A stretch of 64,000 nucleotides of DNA from Lachnospiraceae bacterium (GTDB lineage: Bacteria > Bacillota > Clostridia > Lachnospirales > Lachnospiraceae), in NCBI GenBank assembly GCA_015056945.1, contig SVFH01000011.1, positions 1 to 64,000 on the forward strand, in the 5' to 3' direction. The position numbers were made by a program, and so were the translations under genes. Below the pieces are notes generated by a model. It was not told where the DNA came from, made no database searches, and was given only the letters and a program-made list of their open reading frames with translations. Positions within the stretch are counted from its first letter, which is position 1; every line of letters starts with the position of its first letter. Positions 14,267-24,003 of the stretch are shown piece by piece.

Positions 14267-15922
14267 TCATTGCGTTTTAAACAAAGAAACAATATTCTCT
14301 ATTGCTCCGCCTTCAATTCGGCCGTCTGGCAAACGTCTGAATTGACTCAAATACTTCCATGCATTCAAAGAATTCAAATATCTCATCTCATGTTTTTGAT
14401 TAGAAGCGCTTCCAAAAACAGTATAACAACATCCGTTATTACTTTCAAACAAATGCATCGTAAGAACACTTCCTGTCACCGGATCTTTTGCTGTGCAAAT
14501 CACATCTCCGTCCACACCCATAATCGAATTACTCCACATCTCCTTATTCTCAAAAGAAATATCCGGTTGTATTTTCGCATCATTTACAGCTAAAACATAC
14601 TTCATTCGTTCAAGACACTTTTCTTCATGAAACGGCAATTCCGGTAATGGAGAATCTTCTCCTCCTACATAAAACACAGGAACTATTGTCTCTTCATTGA
14701 TATCTTCAACAGAATTTGCAAATACATTTACTCCAACCGGAAATGTTGCATCCATCGGTGCAACCCCTGCAAATAAATCCGGATATTCCTGGAATAAATC
14801 CCATGATTTACATCCACCCATGGAAAATCCTGTTGCATAAATTCTCTCTTCATCAATCATATATGTATCTTTTAAATGTTCAAGCAACGCTATCGCTTCA
14901 GTCGCAGTACTGTTCATATGATTCTCAACGCAAACAAGTAAAAAATCATTCTGATTCGCAACCTTATGCCAGTCAGAAAGCGCCGCCATACAGAAAGCCG
15001 AATCACCGCCACCATGGAAACACAGTACTAAAGGAACTTTTTTCAAAGTGCTCAAAATGGCCCGATTGTAAAATGCAACATACGCGATTAAATGTTCTTT
15101 CTTATCTTTATCATCGCCGCAATTATCTTCAGAAACAGGAACTACACAATATCCCGGTTCCGCTTCCATGCCAAGTTTCTCTAATTCCGGTTCTGTGTCT
15201 AACGTTCCAACCATACGACGGTATTTCCTGATAAAAAAATAAAAATCTTCCGGATACTCTGCACTGTCTTTTATCAAAACATCATGTAACCCCGCTTTAA
15301 GCGCCTGATTGATTTCATCCGAATTTCGAACGGACACAACAGGAATATCACTTCTTTCAAAAGAAGGCAACATACTTAATCGTTCCAATATACATACTGT
15401 CGGTGTAATATCACCATAACCAAACAAGCCTTCTCCCATTACGGTCTTCATACAATGCTTTGCAATATAATCCGCAGAAGTCCCAAATCCATACAAGCAG
15501 GTCCTTGCGCGCATGCCTCGAATTTTAACTTCTCCCCATTCAAGGGTAAAACGGTCACGCATAAGCGTTACACCGTCTTTGTAATACTGTCCGATTTTGG
15601 TTTCAGCAATCAGCTCGGTATATAATGTATCATCTGCCTCAGACCAACCACCTGCATTCGTCGGATATACAAATACAACACTACTACCATATTCTTTAGC
15701 AATTGTATCTATTCCATTCTCCTGCGCAAATTTCACAACCTGCTCCCTATCCGGTTTCTCTTCCATAAAGAAAAGCAGATACGGTGCAATAAAAGCATAA
15801 TTTATGACGTCAGTAATATAGTCGCTCATAGGAAGATATACAATCACTTTAAAAGTCTGAAAAGTATGCTCCCATACCCTGCTTCCGTCCGCCAATACAA
15901 TAATTTTAGGTATCTCTTTCAT
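14267..15922 (-). CDS. Esterase-like alpha/beta-hydrolase (PHB depolymerase/feruloyl esterase type), possibly duplicated
   Basis: This is a cytoplasmic protein of about 551 residues. The C-terminal half (residues ~285-480) has an alpha/beta-hydrolase core: LVLCFHGGG for the oxyanion region, ATGFSMGG with nucleophile S367, and APMDATFPVG after it. The substrate is unknown. The N-terminal half looks like a second, degenerate copy, with VVFVYPTNAGGWSE and LYGFGTSADY in equivalent places. The ATG at 15922 is chosen because AAAGGGGAC lies upstream and because the promoter -10 box is only a few bases before the alternative ATG at 15958. It stands alone between a promoter and a terminator. Confidence 0.75.
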   Translation of the reverse strand: MKEIPKIIVLADGSRVWEHTFQTFKVIVYLPMSDYITDVINYAFIAPYLLFFMEEKPDREQVVKFAQENGIDTIAKEYGSSVVFVYPTNAGGWSEADDTLYTELIAETKIGQYYKDGVTLMRDRFTLEWGEVKIRGMRARTCLYGFGTSADYIAKHCMKTVMGEGLFGYGDITPTVCILERLSMLPSFERSDIPVVSVRNSDEINQALKAGLHDVLIKDSAEYPEDFYFFIRKYRRMVGTLDTEPELEKLGMEAEPGYCVVPVSEDNCGDDKDKKEHLIAYVAFYNRAILSTLKKVPLVLCFHGGGDSAFCMAALSDWHKVANQNDFLLVCVENHMNSTATEAIALLEHLKDTYMIDEERIYATGFSMGGCKSWDLFQEYPDLFAGVAPMDATFPVGVNVFANSVEDINEETIVPVFYVGGEDSPLPELPFHEEKCLERMKYVLAVNDAKIQPDISFENKEMWSNSIMGVDGDVICTAKDPVTGSVLTMHLFESNNGCCYTVFGSASNQKHEMRYLNSLNAWKYLSQFRRLPDGRIEGGAIENIVSLFKTQ

Positions 15923-15966
15923 AGTCTCTTTGTCCCCTTTAAAGATAGTTTTTACCATACTTTAAT

Positions 15967-16294: not shown

Positions 16295-19200
16295 TTAAAC
16301 AAAATCAAAAAGGCTTATCTGATTGCTTTCAGGTAAATCTCCAAGCAAACCGAGACGAGCAAGTGTTTCAGTTACGGTTTTGGTACATTTGGTTCTTTCA
16401 CGGAAATTATCCTGAGAAAGAAACGGTCCGTCTTTTACAGCTTCTACAATCCCTTCTGCTGCTTTTTCGGCAACACCGTCAACACTGATTAAGGACGGCA
16501 TGATTTTACCGTCGATAATCTGAAATGTACGAGCGTTTGCCCGGAAAATATCCAACGGTTCAAATTCAAAGCCACGGGCATACATTTCCTGTACAATACG
16601 CATATCTTTCATTGCATCAATCTCTTTGTTCGACAATTTGTCTTCACGACTTTTATATTCTTCATAAATTCGCACCAGATGTTCTTCACCCTGACACATT
16701 ATTTCATAAGAAAAAGCCGTAGCTCGAATACTGAAATATGCGGAATAATATGCCAGCGGATAGTTTACCTTACAATAAGCAATACGCCATGCCATCATAA
16801 CATATGCAGCTGCATGCGCTTTCGGGAACATATACTTAATCTTTTTGCAGGACCAAATGTACCATTCCGGCACATTATGGTCACGCATAGCCTGTTCCCA
16901 TTCAGCCTTCAATCCTTTTCCTTTACGCACACTTTCCATGATTGTAAAAGAAAGACTCGCTTCAACTCCCATACCGATTAAGTATGTCATAATATCATCT
17001 CGCGTACAAATTGCAGTCGAAATGGTCGCCTTTCCCTCTTCAATCAAGGTCTGCGCATTACCAAGCCAAACATCCGTACCGTGAGAAAGACCGGAAATAC
17101 GAACCAAATCAGAAAACCGTTGCGGTTTAGTATCCAGCAACATCTGCATCGCGAAATCTGTTCCAAACTCAGGGATTCCAAGAGACCCCAGTTTACATCC
17201 CATGATATCATTCGGTTCAATACCAAGCGCATGTGTATTCTGAAACAGACTCATAACATCTTTATCATCCAAAGGAATTGTCAAGGGATCTATACCCGTC
17301 AAATCCTGCAGCATACGAATCATCGTCGGATCGTCGTGTCCGAGAATATCAAGTTTCAAAAGATTATGATCAATCGAGTGATAATCAAAATGTGTTGTTA
17401 TAATATCCGTTGTCATATCATTGGCAGGACGCTGGATTGGAGTAAACTGATTAATGTCATATCCGATAGGCAACACAATTATTCCTCCCGGATGCTGACC
17501 TGTTGTACGTCTGACATCCACACACCCCTGCACAATACGATTGATTTCACTTTCGCGTTTCACAACGCCTCTTTCTTCAAAGTATTTCTTCACATAACCA
17601 AATGCCGTCTTCTCAGCAAGCGTACCAATTGTTCCGGCTCGGTATGTCTGTCCTGCACCAAAAATAACTTCCGTATACTTATGCGCTTTTGACTGATATT
17701 CTCCCGAAAAGTTCAAGTCAATATCAGGTTCTTTATCTCCTTTAAAGCCCAGGAATGTTTCAAACGGAATATCAAATCCGTCTTTTTTCAGCAAGGCTCC
17801 GCAATTAGGACAATTTTTATCAGGCATATCGCATCCGGCTTTTCCTGCAAATGGTTTGGTATCTTCTGACTCAAATTCAGAATAATGACATTCACTACAA
17901 TAATAATGCGGCACAAGCGGATTCACCTCTGTAATACCCGCCATGGTTGCCACAAAAGAGGAACCTACCGAACCTCTTGAACCTACCAGATAGCCGTCCT
18001 CATTTGATTTCCAAACCAATTTTTGGGCAATAATATACATAACGGCAAATCCATTTGTAATAATGGAATTCAATTCCCGTTGTAAGCGTGCTTCTACGAT
18101 TTCCGGCAAATTCTCACCATAAATCTCATGCGCTTTGTTATAACAGATATTCGTAAGTGTTTCATCACTGTTTTCAATCACCGGAGGACATTTATCCGGA
18201 TGAATCGGCGAAACGCGTTCACACAAATCTGCTATCATATTTGTATTGGTAATAACAACCTCTTCCGCCTTTTTACTTCCGAGGTACTCAAACTCCGCAA
18301 GCATTTCTTCCGTTGTACGCAAGAAAAGCGGCGCCTGTTCATCTGCATCCTGAAATCCTTTGCCGGCCATAATAATCCGTCGATATATCTCATCTTCCGG
18401 ATCCATGAAATGTACATCGCAAGTTGCGCAAACAGGTTTATTATAGATTTCACCAAGTTCAACAATTTTTCGATTATATGCAATCAAATCCTCATCTGTT
18501 CTGATATGCGGATATTTCTCATCGCGAATCATAAACCTATTATTTCCGATAGGTTGTATTTCCAAATAATCATAAAACTGAACTATATTAGCAAGCTGTT
18601 CATCGGTACGTTCTTCCAGCAATGCCCGGAAAAGTTCTCCGGCTTCACAAGCAGAACCGATGATCAGATTTTCACGTAAAGAAGCCAAAAGGCTCTTTGG
18701 AATACGCGGTCTTCTGTAATAATAATTCACGTGTGACTCCGAAACCAGTTTATACAATGCTCTTCTTCCCATCTCATTTTTAGCAAGAATAATAACATGG
18801 TAAGAAGGCAATTTACGGATTGCTTCAATGCTTGATGCTGTCATATCATTTAAAGCAGCCAATGTAGCAATCTGTTGTTTTTGCAAATGAAAAACAAACC
18901 GTCTGAATGCCTCTGCGATAAGATTCACTCGCTCTGTAACACTACTTTCATTCTCAAAAGTAATGCCGTATTCTTTGGCAATAGATTTCAAATCATGTTT
19001 CGCCCGTTCCGTAAGAATTGCTCTGGCAACTGACATACTGTCAACACAGGTAAAATCATATGAAATACCGATTTCTTCTGCTTTTGCCTGCAAAAAAGCC
19101 CTTTCCGTAGTCGCATTATGCGATACAAGAACACTATCTTTCGCAAAAGCAAAAAATTCTGATAATGCCCCTTCTATGTATGGTGCCTTGGCAACCATTT

Positions 19201-20749
19201 CATCTTTAATGCCCGTTACACGCTCAATTTGAAACGGAATCGGACGTTTCGGGTTTACATAACTATGATAAGATTCTTTTATTTCGTTATTGATAAGCTT
19301 TACGGCACCTATTTCAATAATTTGCTCTTTCAACGGCGACAAACCGGTTGTGGTAAGAGAAAACACAACATAAGGACCTTCTATGCTTTGTCCTTTTTCA
19401 TTCGAAACAGTTTCATCAAGGTCATCTACAAGATAACCTTCTACACCATATAACACTTTAAAAGAATCATTCTTTTCAACTGTATGAAATGCTTCCGGGA
19501 AAGCCTGTACAACACCATGATCCGTAATTGCTATGGATGACATTCCCCAGGAAATAGCGCGATTAATTAAATCTTTGGCATACGATACACCGTCACTGTC
19601 ACTCATTTTAGTATGGCAATGTAATTCCACACGCTTTTTGAAAGCATTATCCTTTCTGGGCGTTGTGAAATCCTGAATCAAACGTATACCAAGAATTGAA
19701 GTAATCGTCACTTCATGTGCAAAATCATCATACTTGGCAATTCCTTGTAATTTGACAAAATTGCCTTTTTTCAAAGAAGGTTCAATCTCTTCTTTTTGTT
19801 CCGGCCAGCAAAATATTTTAGCAACAATAGTATCCGTAAAATCTGTTACAGCAAAGGAAATTACGTACTTACCGCTTCTTAATTCATGCCCGTCAAGCTC
19901 AATAATCTTACCTCGAATGGTAACATCTCCGATTCCCTCCTGAATGTCACAAATGGAAATTGCTTCATTCTCCACATCTTTTCCAAAAATAACATCAGGA
20001 ATATCACATCGCTTCAGTGACTTATGCTTAACTTCTTCTTTCTCTTTCTTTGCGTTTCCTTTCTTTATGTCTTTATCCTTATTTGCAGCAGGCTCTGATG
20101 CGTTTTTCGCATTTTTATCATCTGTATATTCAAGAAATTCTGCTCCTGCGTCCGTATTTCCTTTCTTATTAATACGGTCAGAAATGGACTTAACCATCAT
20201 ATTAATCTTATAGGCATCTTCTTCTTTATATTTATTAAATTCAGGTTCTTTAAACGCAATTTCAATACGCGCATCGATTCCGCACCGACGATTGAAAATA
20301 TCATTTAATTCTTTTACCAATTGTACTTGCCTGTCTCGCGAAACAACCGTATCCTGTATTGTAAAAATTACTTTATTTCCGTTTTCAAAAGACACATCTG
20401 CCGAAGCAATAATATGATAATCCAGCTTACCGATTTCCATCATATCTTCTAAAATACTCTCTCGATATGCTTGATAAACAGACTCTGCAGTATAATATTC
20501 AGACAATGCAAACGTCTCACAAATCTCAACACGTAAACTCGAAGTCCCCCGGAAGATTTGCTTGTGAATTTCATACTCCAATGCATGAATGTCTTTTCTG
20601 GCAATTAGTCTTTTACTTTGAAGATGTACCTTTAATTTTTTATTTTCCGGTATTGCAACAAGCTTTTCAATCACAATTTCTTCTGCCAAGTCCGAAAGAT
20701 GGGCGGGTAATTCTATTTTTTCAAATACCTCATAAAATGTCTTTTGCAT
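16295..20749 (-). CDS. polC: DNA polymerase III PolC-type alpha subunit with a degenerate exonuclease domain
   Basis: PolC is the leading replicase of low-GC Gram-positive bacteria. The 1,484-residue protein has the normal order: N-terminal domain, OB fold (VTIRGKIIELDGHE, ~270), PHP domain (VELHCHTKMSDSDG, ~375; ITDHGVVQAFPEA), an inserted exonuclease-like domain (~458-620), a second PHP part, zinc-binding Cys motif (YCSECHYSEF...NCPNCG), and the polymerase core with PDIDLNFSGEYQ. The polymerase residues look intact. The exonuclease domain does not: motif I reads SLTT (S464, T466) instead of the usual DLET, motif II has TE (548-549) instead of FD, and motif III lacks the His and Asp. Proofreading by this domain is predicted to be lost. 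It starts with AAGGATT before the ATG, 34 nt after ispG. Confidence 0.97.
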   Translation of the reverse strand: MQKTFYEVFEKIELPAHLSDLAEEIVIEKLVAIPENKKLKVHLQSKRLIARKDIHALEYEIHKQIFRGTSSLRVEICETFALSEYYTAESVYQAYRESILEDMMEIGKLDYHIIASADVSFENGNKVIFTIQDTVVSRDRQVQLVKELNDIFNRRCGIDARIEIAFKEPEFNKYKEEDAYKINMMVKSISDRINKKGNTDAGAEFLEYTDDKNAKNASEPAANKDKDIKKGNAKKEKEEVKHKSLKRCDIPDVIFGKDVENEAISICDIQEGIGDVTIRGKIIELDGHELRSGKYVISFAVTDFTDTIVAKIFCWPEQKEEIEPSLKKGNFVKLQGIAKYDDFAHEVTITSILGIRLIQDFTTPRKDNAFKKRVELHCHTKMSDSDGVSYAKDLINRAISWGMSSIAITDHGVVQAFPEAFHTVEKNDSFKVLYGVEGYLVDDLDETVSNEKGQSIEGPYVVFSLTTTGLSPLKEQIIEIGAVKLINNEIKESYHSYVNPKRPIPFQIERVTGIKDEMVAKAPYIEGALSEFFAFAKDSVLVSHNATTERAFLQAKAEEIGISYDFTCVDSMSVARAILTERAKHDLKSIAKEYGITFENESSVTERVNLIAEAFRRFVFHLQKQQIATLAALNDMTASSIEAIRKLPSYHVIILAKNEMGRRALYKLVSESHVNYYYRRPRIPKSLLASLRENLIIGSACEAGELFRALLEERTDEQLANIVQFYDYLEIQPIGNNRFMIRDEKYPHIRTDEDLIAYNRKIVELGEIYNKPVCATCDVHFMDPEDEIYRRIIMAGKGFQDADEQAPLFLRTTEEMLAEFEYLGSKKAEEVVITNTNMIADLCERVSPIHPDKCPPVIENSDETLTNICYNKAHEIYGENLPEIVEARLQRELNSIITNGFAVMYIIAQKLVWKSNEDGYLVGSRGSVGSSFVATMAGITEVNPLVPHYYCSECHYSEFESEDTKPFAGKAGCDMPDKNCPNCGALLKKDGFDIPFETFLGFKGDKEPDIDLNFSGEYQSKAHKYTEVIFGAGQTYRAGTIGTLAEKTAFGYVKKYFEERGVVKRESEINRIVQGCVDVRRTTGQHPGGIIVLPIGYDINQFTPIQRPANDMTTDIITTHFDYHSIDHNLLKLDILGHDDPTMIRMLQDLTGIDPLTIPLDDKDVMSLFQNTHALGIEPNDIMGCKLGSLGIPEFGTDFAMQMLLDTKPQRFSDLVRISGLSHGTDVWLGNAQTLIEEGKATISTAICTRDDIMTYLIGMGVEASLSFTIMESVRKGKGLKAEWEQAMRDHNVPEWYIWSCKKIKYMFPKAHAAAYVMMAWRIAYCKVNYPLAYYSAYFSIRATAFSYEIMCQGEEHLVRIYEEYKSREDKLSNKEIDAMKDMRIVQEMYARGFEFEPLDIFRANARTFQIIDGKIMPSLISVDGVAEKAAEGIVEAVKDGPFLSQDNFRERTKCTKTVTETLARLGLLGDLPESNQISLFDFV

Positions 20750-22338: not shown

Positions 22339-23292
22339 TCACCTAAAAATATGTACACTGTATTCACATGCCAGTATTTTGACAGCAGACTCCTTTTCTG
22401 CTTTGCGGACTAAAAATCCAACTGCTGCAATTGTGTTGCCTGCAACAATAAGTAACTGTGCTTCATACAATGCATTACCCAAAGCAAACAGAAAGCCCGA
22501 AAAAATAAAAAGTAATGCAAGAACAAACCAAATTTTAGTATATTTCTGTCTTTCTTTCTTCGACATATTTTCATTTTCATACAATGCTTCTTTCAAATGA
22601 TTTATAGATACAAAACGTTTTTCCGGTTCCGGATTCGTTGCGCAGACAATAACCTTAGCCACATTTTCCTCTATATGAAAATATTCCGCTATTTCTTCCG
22701 TTTTGTATGTACTTAAATAAGATGGTTCACATCCGGTAATCATATATTGCATGATTCTGCCAACAGAATAAATATCATTTTGAACATGAACCTCACCCTT
22801 CTTTCGTTCCGGCGCCAGATATCCTTTGGTACCACAGAGCATAGAAGGCATCTCTCCTAAATAAGACGCACCGCCCAAATCCAGCAATGCAATCTTATCA
22901 TTCTCTAAAAGAATGATATTTTCCGGTTTCAAATCACCATGAATGACCGGTACATTCTGTGAATGTAAAACAGACAACAGCTCTGCTAATTCAAATATTA
23001 TTTTTCTACACCGTTTTGTATCAATTACACCGTTTTTCTTTACCACTTCTTTTAGTGTGTCACCCTCCATATTTTCCATAACTATCATTGTTGTATGCCC
23101 ATCCCTTACAACGTCATGAAGTCTGGGCACACCCGGATGCGCAAGAGCTTTCAGCCATGCAATTTCTGTTTCTGCAATCACATCATCCGCAATTTCTTTG
23201 GCCACAAAAATAGTTCCGATATTTCTATCTTTCACCTTATAAACCTTTGAAAAACCGCCGGCTCCGATTTCTTCTAGTATTTCATATCGCAT
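22339..23292 (-). CDS. Membrane-anchored Hanks-type serine/threonine protein kinase
   Basis: This protein of about 317 residues has a complete kinase domain at the N-terminus. In numbering from the upstream GTG (23295) these are the glycine loop GAGGFSKVY, K33 in VAKE, catalytic loop HGDLKPEN (H119-N126), DLG (139-141) in place of DFG, and APER. The HGD motif makes it a non-RD kinase. The C-terminus has two hydrophobic segments (~255-275 and ~280-300) but no PASTA repeats. The ATG at 23292 has GGAGG 7 nt upstream. It follows the PP2C-like gene by about 12 nt, suggesting a functional pair. Confidence 0.9.
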   Translation of the reverse strand: MRYEILEEIGAGGFSKVYKVKDRNIGTIFVAKEIADDVIAETEIAWLKALAHPGVPRLHDVVRDGHTTMIVMENMEGDTLKEVVKKNGVIDTKRCRKIIFELAELLSVLHSQNVPVIHGDLKPENIILLENDKIALLDLGGASYLGEMPSMLCGTKGYLAPERKKGEVHVQNDIYSVGRIMQYMITGCEPSYLSTYKTEEIAEYFHIEENVAKVIVCATNPEPEKRFVSINHLKEALYENENMSKKERQKYTKIWFVLALLFIFSGFLFALGNALYEAQLLIVAGNTIAAVGFLVRKAEKESAVKILACEYSVHIFR

Positions 23293-23304
23293 CACTTTTC
23301 CTCC

Positions 23305-24003
23305 TTATTCTTCTGTTCGCACGCAAATACAGGCATATGCATAATCGTCATACCGTTCCCTGTTTCTGTCCATCAACTCTTTCAGTACTTTATTTACAGA
23401 CTCCTCTTTTCGCGCAGAATAAACAAAGGAACATAAGTGCTTCTTGGAAAAGTGACTTGCGCATGCTTTAGAAAATAATAAATAAAGTGTATCCTTTTGA
23501 TTTTTTCCACTTACTCTCTCTATTTCCAATCTTTCTTCTTCACCGAGAAAATGTATCTTTTTTTCTTTTTCCTTCTGTAAAAGCTTATACTTTTTCCCTT
23601 TGCACTTCATCCAATTTCCGTCTCCGACTCTGCAACCGAGATAACCGCTCTCAGTAATTATCAGAACCTGAAGAGAATATTTGCACTTAAATCTGTGTTC
23701 CGCTGAATGTAATAAAAGTTTTTGATGCAACATAAAAAACTCTCTCTTTAAACTTCTGTAAAGACTGTTTTTAGAGTTACTTTTACAAAAAGCAGGGATT
23801 CCGGTTTCATAAAACCATTGCGTAATCTCCTGTAAAACCATTGCAATGATTGTTTCATCCTTCTCTTCCTGCTTCACACCTTCTGCCATAGCACAAAAAC
23901 AAATCCGTCCTCTGTTTGTCAAAACACATTGAACGGAAATCCCCAGATTGTTTCTGTTACAAAGCCCTTCTCTTTCGTACAAATAAAAAGGCTTACAATT
24001 CAT
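23305..24003 (-). CDS. Divergent PP2C-like protein, probably lacking phosphatase activity
   Basis: The 232-residue sequence has the layout of a short PP2C/PPM phosphatase: GLCNRNNLGISV where active enzymes have an R-NED motif, ICFCAMAEGVKQ where they have VADGMGG, YLGCRVGDGNWM equivalent to the VGDSR strand, and a final YDDYAYACICVR equivalent to DNITVIVVR. The metal-binding Asp residues of the first two motifs are absent or changed to other residues. It may be a pseudophosphatase or regulatory partner of the kinase that follows. The assignment rests on motif order, so a different fold is possible. Confidence 0.6.
   Translation of the reverse strand: MNCKPFYLYEREGLCNRNNLGISVQCVLTNRGRICFCAMAEGVKQEEKDETIIAMVLQEITQWFYETGIPAFCKSNSKNSLYRSLKREFFMLHQKLLLHSAEHRFKCKYSLQVLIITESGYLGCRVGDGNWMKCKGKKYKLLQKEKEKKIHFLGEEERLEIERVSGKNQKDTLYLLFSKACASHFSKKHLCSFVYSARKEESVNKVLKELMDRNRERYDDYAYACICVRTEE

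Follow-up and report, generated by a model that had tools for sequence, protein, structure and literature searches.

The window, by which we mean the whole stretch of 64,000 nucleotides analysed here (contig SVFH01000011.1 of a Lachnospiraceae bacterium), carries the polC gene of a PolC-type DNA polymerase III whose inserted 3'-5' exonuclease domain, of the DEDDh type, is, to judge from its residues and its predicted structure, catalytically dead yet folded. We propose, with a probability of a little under 0.6, that proofreading would be carried out instead by the PHP sites of PolC itself and of its partner DnaE1. Replicase proofreading is usually regarded as indispensable. A broader claim, to which we would give even odds, is that the replicase of Lachnospiraceae has repeatedly given up DEDDh proofreading in favour of the zinc PHP site by way of an intermediate whose dead exonuclease is maintained by selection as a structural element, that the full series of stages exists in the family, and that some near-complete genomes have no convincing DEDDh exonuclease.

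Catalytic residues and fold of the inserted domain

The polC gene lies at 16295..20749 on the minus strand as an unbroken open reading frame (ORF) of 1484 amino acids, which passes the cut-offs of two NCBIfam models for PolC, NF001688 with 1654.7 bits (cut-off 873) and TIGR01405 with 1548.3 bits (cut-off 1043). As in other PolCs, the exonuclease domain (about residues 456-632; 18854..19384, minus strand) sits inside the PHP domain. We aligned it with the PolC exonuclease of T. maritima (2p1j), the PolC of E. faecium (9qpc) and 134 other PolCs. At the five catalytic positions, where an active DEDDh site has D, E, D, H and D, the window protein reads S464, T466, E549, S602 and R607. Motif I (19352..19360, minus strand) is S464-L-T466 instead of D-x-E, motif II (19103..19108, minus strand) is T548-E549 instead of F-D, and motif III (18929..18946, minus strand) runs from S602, where the His is expected, to R607, where the Asp is expected. 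All four metal-binding acids and the His are altered, one of the acid changes, from D to E, being conservative. These alignments agree with the first-pass annotation, which had reported the residues lost at all three motifs within 18880-19385 (about residues 455-624). On this evidence the catalytic residues are certainly lost; because all four acids and the His are changed, the domain is very likely inactive and would be unable to proofread, which supports the earlier claim that no intrinsic proofreading comes from it.

The fold itself, already described as recognisable, is borne out. The Pfam family RNase_T (PF00929) still recognises the domain with 82 bits, 2p1j matches it with an E-value of 1e-25, and an intact DEDDh fold is predicted with confidence; the protein is therefore not a PolC that lacks the insertion. 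A misaligned motif concealing an intact one was rejected on both the sequence alignment and the fold alignment, although no search of model coordinates for spatially substituting acids was made. Pseudogene formation and assembly error were likewise rejected, since the 1484 codons are open, as the first-pass annotation had also noted, and in a sister species (G030) the catalytic residues are lost as well but replaced differently, which makes a sequencing error unlikely. The polymerase and PHP sites are intact, again as first described: D1009, D1011 and D1134 (17348..17725, minus strand), which we assign by motif as the polymerase catalytic aspartates, are kept, and so are the nine PHP ligands.

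The window protein resembles the canonical clostridial PolC (PMC3919608; PMC12926913) in the order of its domains, in its family scores, in the sites for polymerisation and PHP and in having DnaE1 as partner, but its DEDDh active site is destroyed. The closest engineered counterpart is the exo-null E. faecium PolC of 9qpc, in which both motif I acids were deliberately mutated (D431A+E433A); there too the fold is kept, and the enzyme still polymerises (PMC12592400, in part). The changes in the window PolC, unlike those, are natural and affect all five catalytic positions. Dead 3'-5' exonuclease domains are also retained in the PolA2/APEX and PolB2 polymerases; these, however, belong to families A and B, not to the Pol III alpha subunits, and are proposed to act in error-prone repair or translesion synthesis (PMC12926913, same portions).

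Recurrence of the loss in the genus and the family

Sixty-one genomes were searched; 56 yielded a PolC, 55 of which could be read across the exonuclease domain, and together with 80 further PolCs this gave an alignment of 135. The 80 additions, on contigs mostly titled Lachnospiraceae, are the best by similarity and may under-represent PolCs that have lost the exonuclease; none exceeds 76% identity to any genus member in the PolC core. L059 (G018) was dropped, its contig lacking the exonuclease region, and G003 and G016 had no PolC in the search. Six of the 135 PolCs lack the acids of motifs I and II and are called exo-dead here. All six belong to the genus of the window, represented here by 31 genomes with 28 readable PolCs, and this recurrence, unseen in the first-pass annotation, rules out a loss limited to one species. 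The five catalytic positions read STESR in the window genome (G000), EKAEA in G030, NVESR in G013, NIEKD in G017, where the motif III Asp is kept, and NKAEL in both G012 and G022.

The changes concentrate at the active site. At the catalytic positions of five exo-dead sequences (G012 and G022 counted once), 24 of 25 cells carry a change. The control is a set of 38 non-catalytic positions at which at least 95% of the 129 intact sequences agree, and there 62 of 190 cells are changed (Fisher P 5e-10); G000 and G030 count here as two although they may represent one loss event, and the comparison is partly circular because rows were called dead by their changed motif I or II acids. The motif III residues, which played no part in that call, are changed in five of five sequences (His) and in four of five (Asp). 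For the window protein alone, all five catalytic positions are changed compared with 12 of the 38 controls (P 0.006).

G000 and G030 have no catalytic replacement in common, yet they share F548T, S495H, A543S, T571S and A608V. These five non-catalytic replacements favour one ancestral loss followed by drift, which would be the simplest reading, with separate losses as the alternative. With the exonuclease domain excluded, a maximum-likelihood tree of the PolC core (64 of the 132 rows left after L043, L044 and L081 were removed for coverage) requires four changes for the loss. In a DnaE1 tree of 37 rows, in which G030 has no row, the other dead species of the genus fall in the same four places, and including exo-lost species from other genera raises the number of changes needed to nine. 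The resulting figure of about four losses in one genus is an estimate, since both trees come from rapid searches and contain long branches and some unsettled forks.

Some relationships within the genus are unusual. The dead domain of G030 (L005) shares E466K, A546L and a DGEVKESFH stretch with those of G012 (L034) and G022 (L029), which belong to another clade, and is 40-41% identical to them, against 28% for G000; convergence and exchange are candidate causes. Between the exo-intact G009 (L037) and G011 (L042), the core is 92% and the exonuclease 73% identical, possibly through exchange of the exonuclease between lineages. Very long stems lead to L029 and L034 and to the clade of L025, L026, L033 and L035-L042 (1.36 and 1.1 in the PolC core, 0.72 and 0.53 in DnaE1), which may reflect rapid evolution or too wide a circumscription of the genus. 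Loss of the exonuclease is not supported as their cause, because most members of the second clade, that of G010, have an intact exonuclease and DnaE1 shows long stems as well.

The family survey applied profile and PolC searches to 200 genomes from 199 genera, including that of the window. For 37 of the 198 other genera, among them those of G031-G036, the PolC sequence was inspected, low-scoring cases being read; four of the 37 received no call, G223 and G118 having no PolC match and G234 and G099 being cut by contig ends. At least ten genera outside that of the window have lost the exonuclease. The domain is degenerate in G211, G151 and G106 (in G151 the two halves of PolC lie in two ORFs with undetermined bases at the break), eroded in G093, and deleted or reduced to a linker in G199, G242, G098, G222, G107 and G187. 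Ten is a lower bound, because the other 161 genera were scored as intact solely from a profile E-value of 3e-100 or better, and the degenerate domain of G211 still reached 1.5e-96. The Lachnospiraceae thus appear to display a series from an active domain through degeneration and erosion to excision.

PolCs without the Exo insertion were reported in 2013 as 6% of all PolCs, found in Clostridia and Negativicutes with one exception, and with a PHP site reported as conserved (PMC3919608, in the portion available). Like them, the window PolC would have no DEDDh proofreading of its own; unlike them, it still has the domain, predicted to be folded, and looks like a stage before excision, which suggests a possible origin for the exo-less enzymes. 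By title or the start of the abstract, no prior report of a Pol III alpha subunit whose DEDDh domain is retained but inactivated was found in the open-licence PMC literature. According to the available part of a 2026 survey, it is the PHP domain, and not the DnaQ-type proofreader, that is inactivated in these subunits (PMC12926913), and the domain described here would run counter to that wording. The reverse of the survey's pattern has occurred several times within a single genus in which sister species retain the site, and offers a natural experiment on PHP proofreading by PolC, on the resulting mutation rate and on the reason for keeping a dead domain. It is also a caution against defining PolC by an RNase_T match within the PHP domain, as is done in PMC11963600 (in the part available).

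Candidate proofreaders in place of the DEDDh site

The first-pass annotation had named the PHP domain or a separate DnaQ-like protein as possible cover, and both are present. The PHP ligands of the window PolC read HHDHEHCDH, all nine conforming to the pattern HHDHEH(C/H)DH: H377, H379, D386, H411 and E437 form the first half of the site (19439..19621, minus strand) and H651, C701, D778 and H780 the second (18410..18799, minus strand). The nine ligands are intact in 28 of 28 PolCs of the genus, including the six exo-dead ones, and in other genera in all nine exo-lost PolCs read whole as well as in G151. Among the 135 aligned PolCs, six are exo-dead with an intact PHP site, two have an altered PHP site with an intact exonuclease, and none has lost both. 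The two PHP-altered proteins, a mirror image of the window PolC, are L032 (G034) with HHEFDSSDK and L050 (G057) with HHDTTQGNK; one is from the same family. DnaE1, which has matches in 28 of the 31 genus genomes, is invariant in the nine PHP columns of the 22 full-length proteins aligned.

In mycobacteria, the nine-ligand PHP of DnaE1 proofreads; in the PolC of G. kaustophilus, in which one ligand is changed, no PHP exonuclease was seen (PMC5636811, as far as the accessible text goes). Mycobacterial DnaE1, proposed as the proofreader there, has the same nine ligands as the window PolC but no inserted exonuclease, and its PHP activity is demonstrated, whereas here we infer it (same source). Proofreading based on the PHP sites is the best-supported explanation. 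The 3'-5' activity would come from the zinc site of PolC itself and from that of DnaE1, as in the DEDDh-independent mycobacterial DnaE1. Clostridia have several proofreading sites from the outset, which would allow the DEDDh site to be lost: the domain would first be disarmed, might then persist for a while within the PHP domain as an insert under structural constraint, and in other genera would erode and be excised.

The separate protein, encoded on another contig of the window genome (L001:1417-2124, plus strand; G000:C15), is a DEDDh exonuclease with an intact site, fused to a topoisomerase-type zinc ribbon (PF01396), and the genome also encodes a second, more distant RNase_T protein of 327 amino acids. 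The zinc-ribbon protein might proofread in trans, leaving the PHP site no main part, an explanation we regard as unlikely. It is attractive in that the stand-alone DEDDh site is intact in five of the six exo-dead genomes (G000, G012, G022, G013 and G017), the sixth, G030, being only 70% complete, and in that the closest exo-intact relatives G001, G006, G019 and G027 (74 to 97% complete) gave no zinc-ribbon DEDDh match. However, proteins of this type (over 100 bits, ORF of up to 305 amino acids) occur in 23 of the 31 genus genomes, among them 15 of 22 exo-intact ones next to the five of six exo-dead. The protein is therefore available but not tied to the loss, and the idea that its gain was linked to the loss is not supported. 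Outside the genus of the window, RNase_T matches above 100 bits that are not in PolC occur in just two (G106 and G187) of the ten exo-lost genomes. No RNase_T match was found at E 1e-3 in G242 (L264; 100% complete) or G098 (L266; 90%), and none better than E 0.17 when E-values up to 10 were allowed; these two are candidate bacteria without any DEDDh proofreader, although absence from a draft genome is never final. None was found in G199 either, a genome 68% complete, or at E 1e-3 in G093 (L263; 100% complete), where a frame of 390 amino acids reaches 25.1 bits (cut-off 24) by the sum of two weak pieces, similar weak frames occurring in other genomes. Under PHP-based proofreading, the stand-alone exonuclease may still add proofreading in trans.

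A third explanation, which seems to us quite unlikely, is that PolC proofreads weakly or not at all and that a higher mutation rate is tolerated with mismatch repair as the safeguard. The window genome does encode mutS, and in B. subtilis a proofreading-deficient PolC allele combined with dominant-negative MutL raised mutation about 6000-fold (PMC11890065, in part). We ran 16 relative-rate tests on up to four proteins (RpoB, MutS, DnaE1 and the PolC core), which compare protein rates rather than mutation rates and whose P values are uncorrected for the 16 tests. The exo-dead G000 evolved faster than G027 (202:150, P 0.006; with another outgroup 205:162, P 0.025) and G006 (218:161, P 0.003), G013 faster than G027 (234:187, P 0.02), and G012 faster than the exo-intact G010 (541:446, P 0.003) and G024 (738:281). 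But no difference was seen for G000 (220:197) or G013 against G019, for G030 against G027 and G019, or for G017 against four exo-intact relatives, the genes being few. In none of the tests did an exo-dead lineage prove significantly slower than its exo-intact counterpart. Since the exo-intact G010 also far outpaces G024 (669:253), most of the excess of G012 need not stem from the loss. A strong mutator rate is not supported by these mixed results, which are compatible with a weak mutator.

Constraint on the dead domain

Selection could be examined in the exo-dead sister pair G012/G022. Their exonuclease domains differ by 20 synonymous and 6 nonsynonymous changes, giving a ratio of nonsynonymous to synonymous rates (w) of 0.067, with 0.030 in the core; nine intact pairs give 0.012 to 0.098 for the exonuclease, and the six of these with a synonymous divergence (dS) under 1.3 give 0.012 to 0.072. 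Neutrality, under which 72 to 79% of the changes should be nonsynonymous, is rejected (P 2e-7 to 2e-9). The dead domain is therefore constrained in this pair, and it appears, from this one case, that a dead PolC exonuclease can remain under purifying selection.

Several observations weigh against the proposal that a constrained dead domain is kept while the PHP sites proofread. The selection test concerns the single pair G012/G022 and not the window species. In that pair the nonsynonymous divergence (dN) of the exonuclease exceeds that of the core 3.4-fold (range over the nine intact pairs 0.98 to 8.3), and dead-versus-intact identity in the domain, judged against the core, falls a mean of 13 to 24 points short of the line fitted to 210 intact pairs, which are not independent (residual standard deviation 5.3, lowest intact pair -13.9). 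The PHP ligands could be kept for structural reasons, and the absence of double losses does not prove compensation, because PHP-altered PolCs are rare (2 of 135). In the literature covered, in so far as its text was available, PHP exonuclease activity of a PolC was not found reported. Several relative-rate tests also gave a modest excess in exo-dead lineages. As for the domain, which is 50% identical between G000 and G030 where the core is 82% identical, the simplest joint reading would be that constraint is relaxed yet not absent, and lifted most at the active site.

The domain might be neutral debris bound for deletion, without a present role, which we hold to be improbable. This would agree with the relaxed constraint relative to the polymerase core and with the eroded form of G093 and the excised or linker-only forms of G242, G098, G222, G107, G187 and G199; it fits poorly with the rejection of neutrality in G012/G022 and with the window protein, which keeps 26 of 43 highly conserved positions and a confidently predicted fold. 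Least probable among the alternatives weighed is that the domain was repurposed, for instance as a binding site for single-stranded DNA, the clamp or a different subunit, with catalytic loss itself selected for. Purifying selection without catalysis in one pair and the partly circular concentration of changes at catalytic positions speak for it; by eye, however, the dead domains of the various lineages have no new motif that all of them share, and the replacement residues differ.

Around polC, an ORF of 563 amino acids without a Pfam match at E 1e-5 adjoins the gene (14267-15958, minus strand). Upstream lie, on the minus strand at 22339-23295 and 23305-24003, a protein kinase gene (PF00069) and an ORF without a Pfam match, flanked by ispG and an M50 protease gene.

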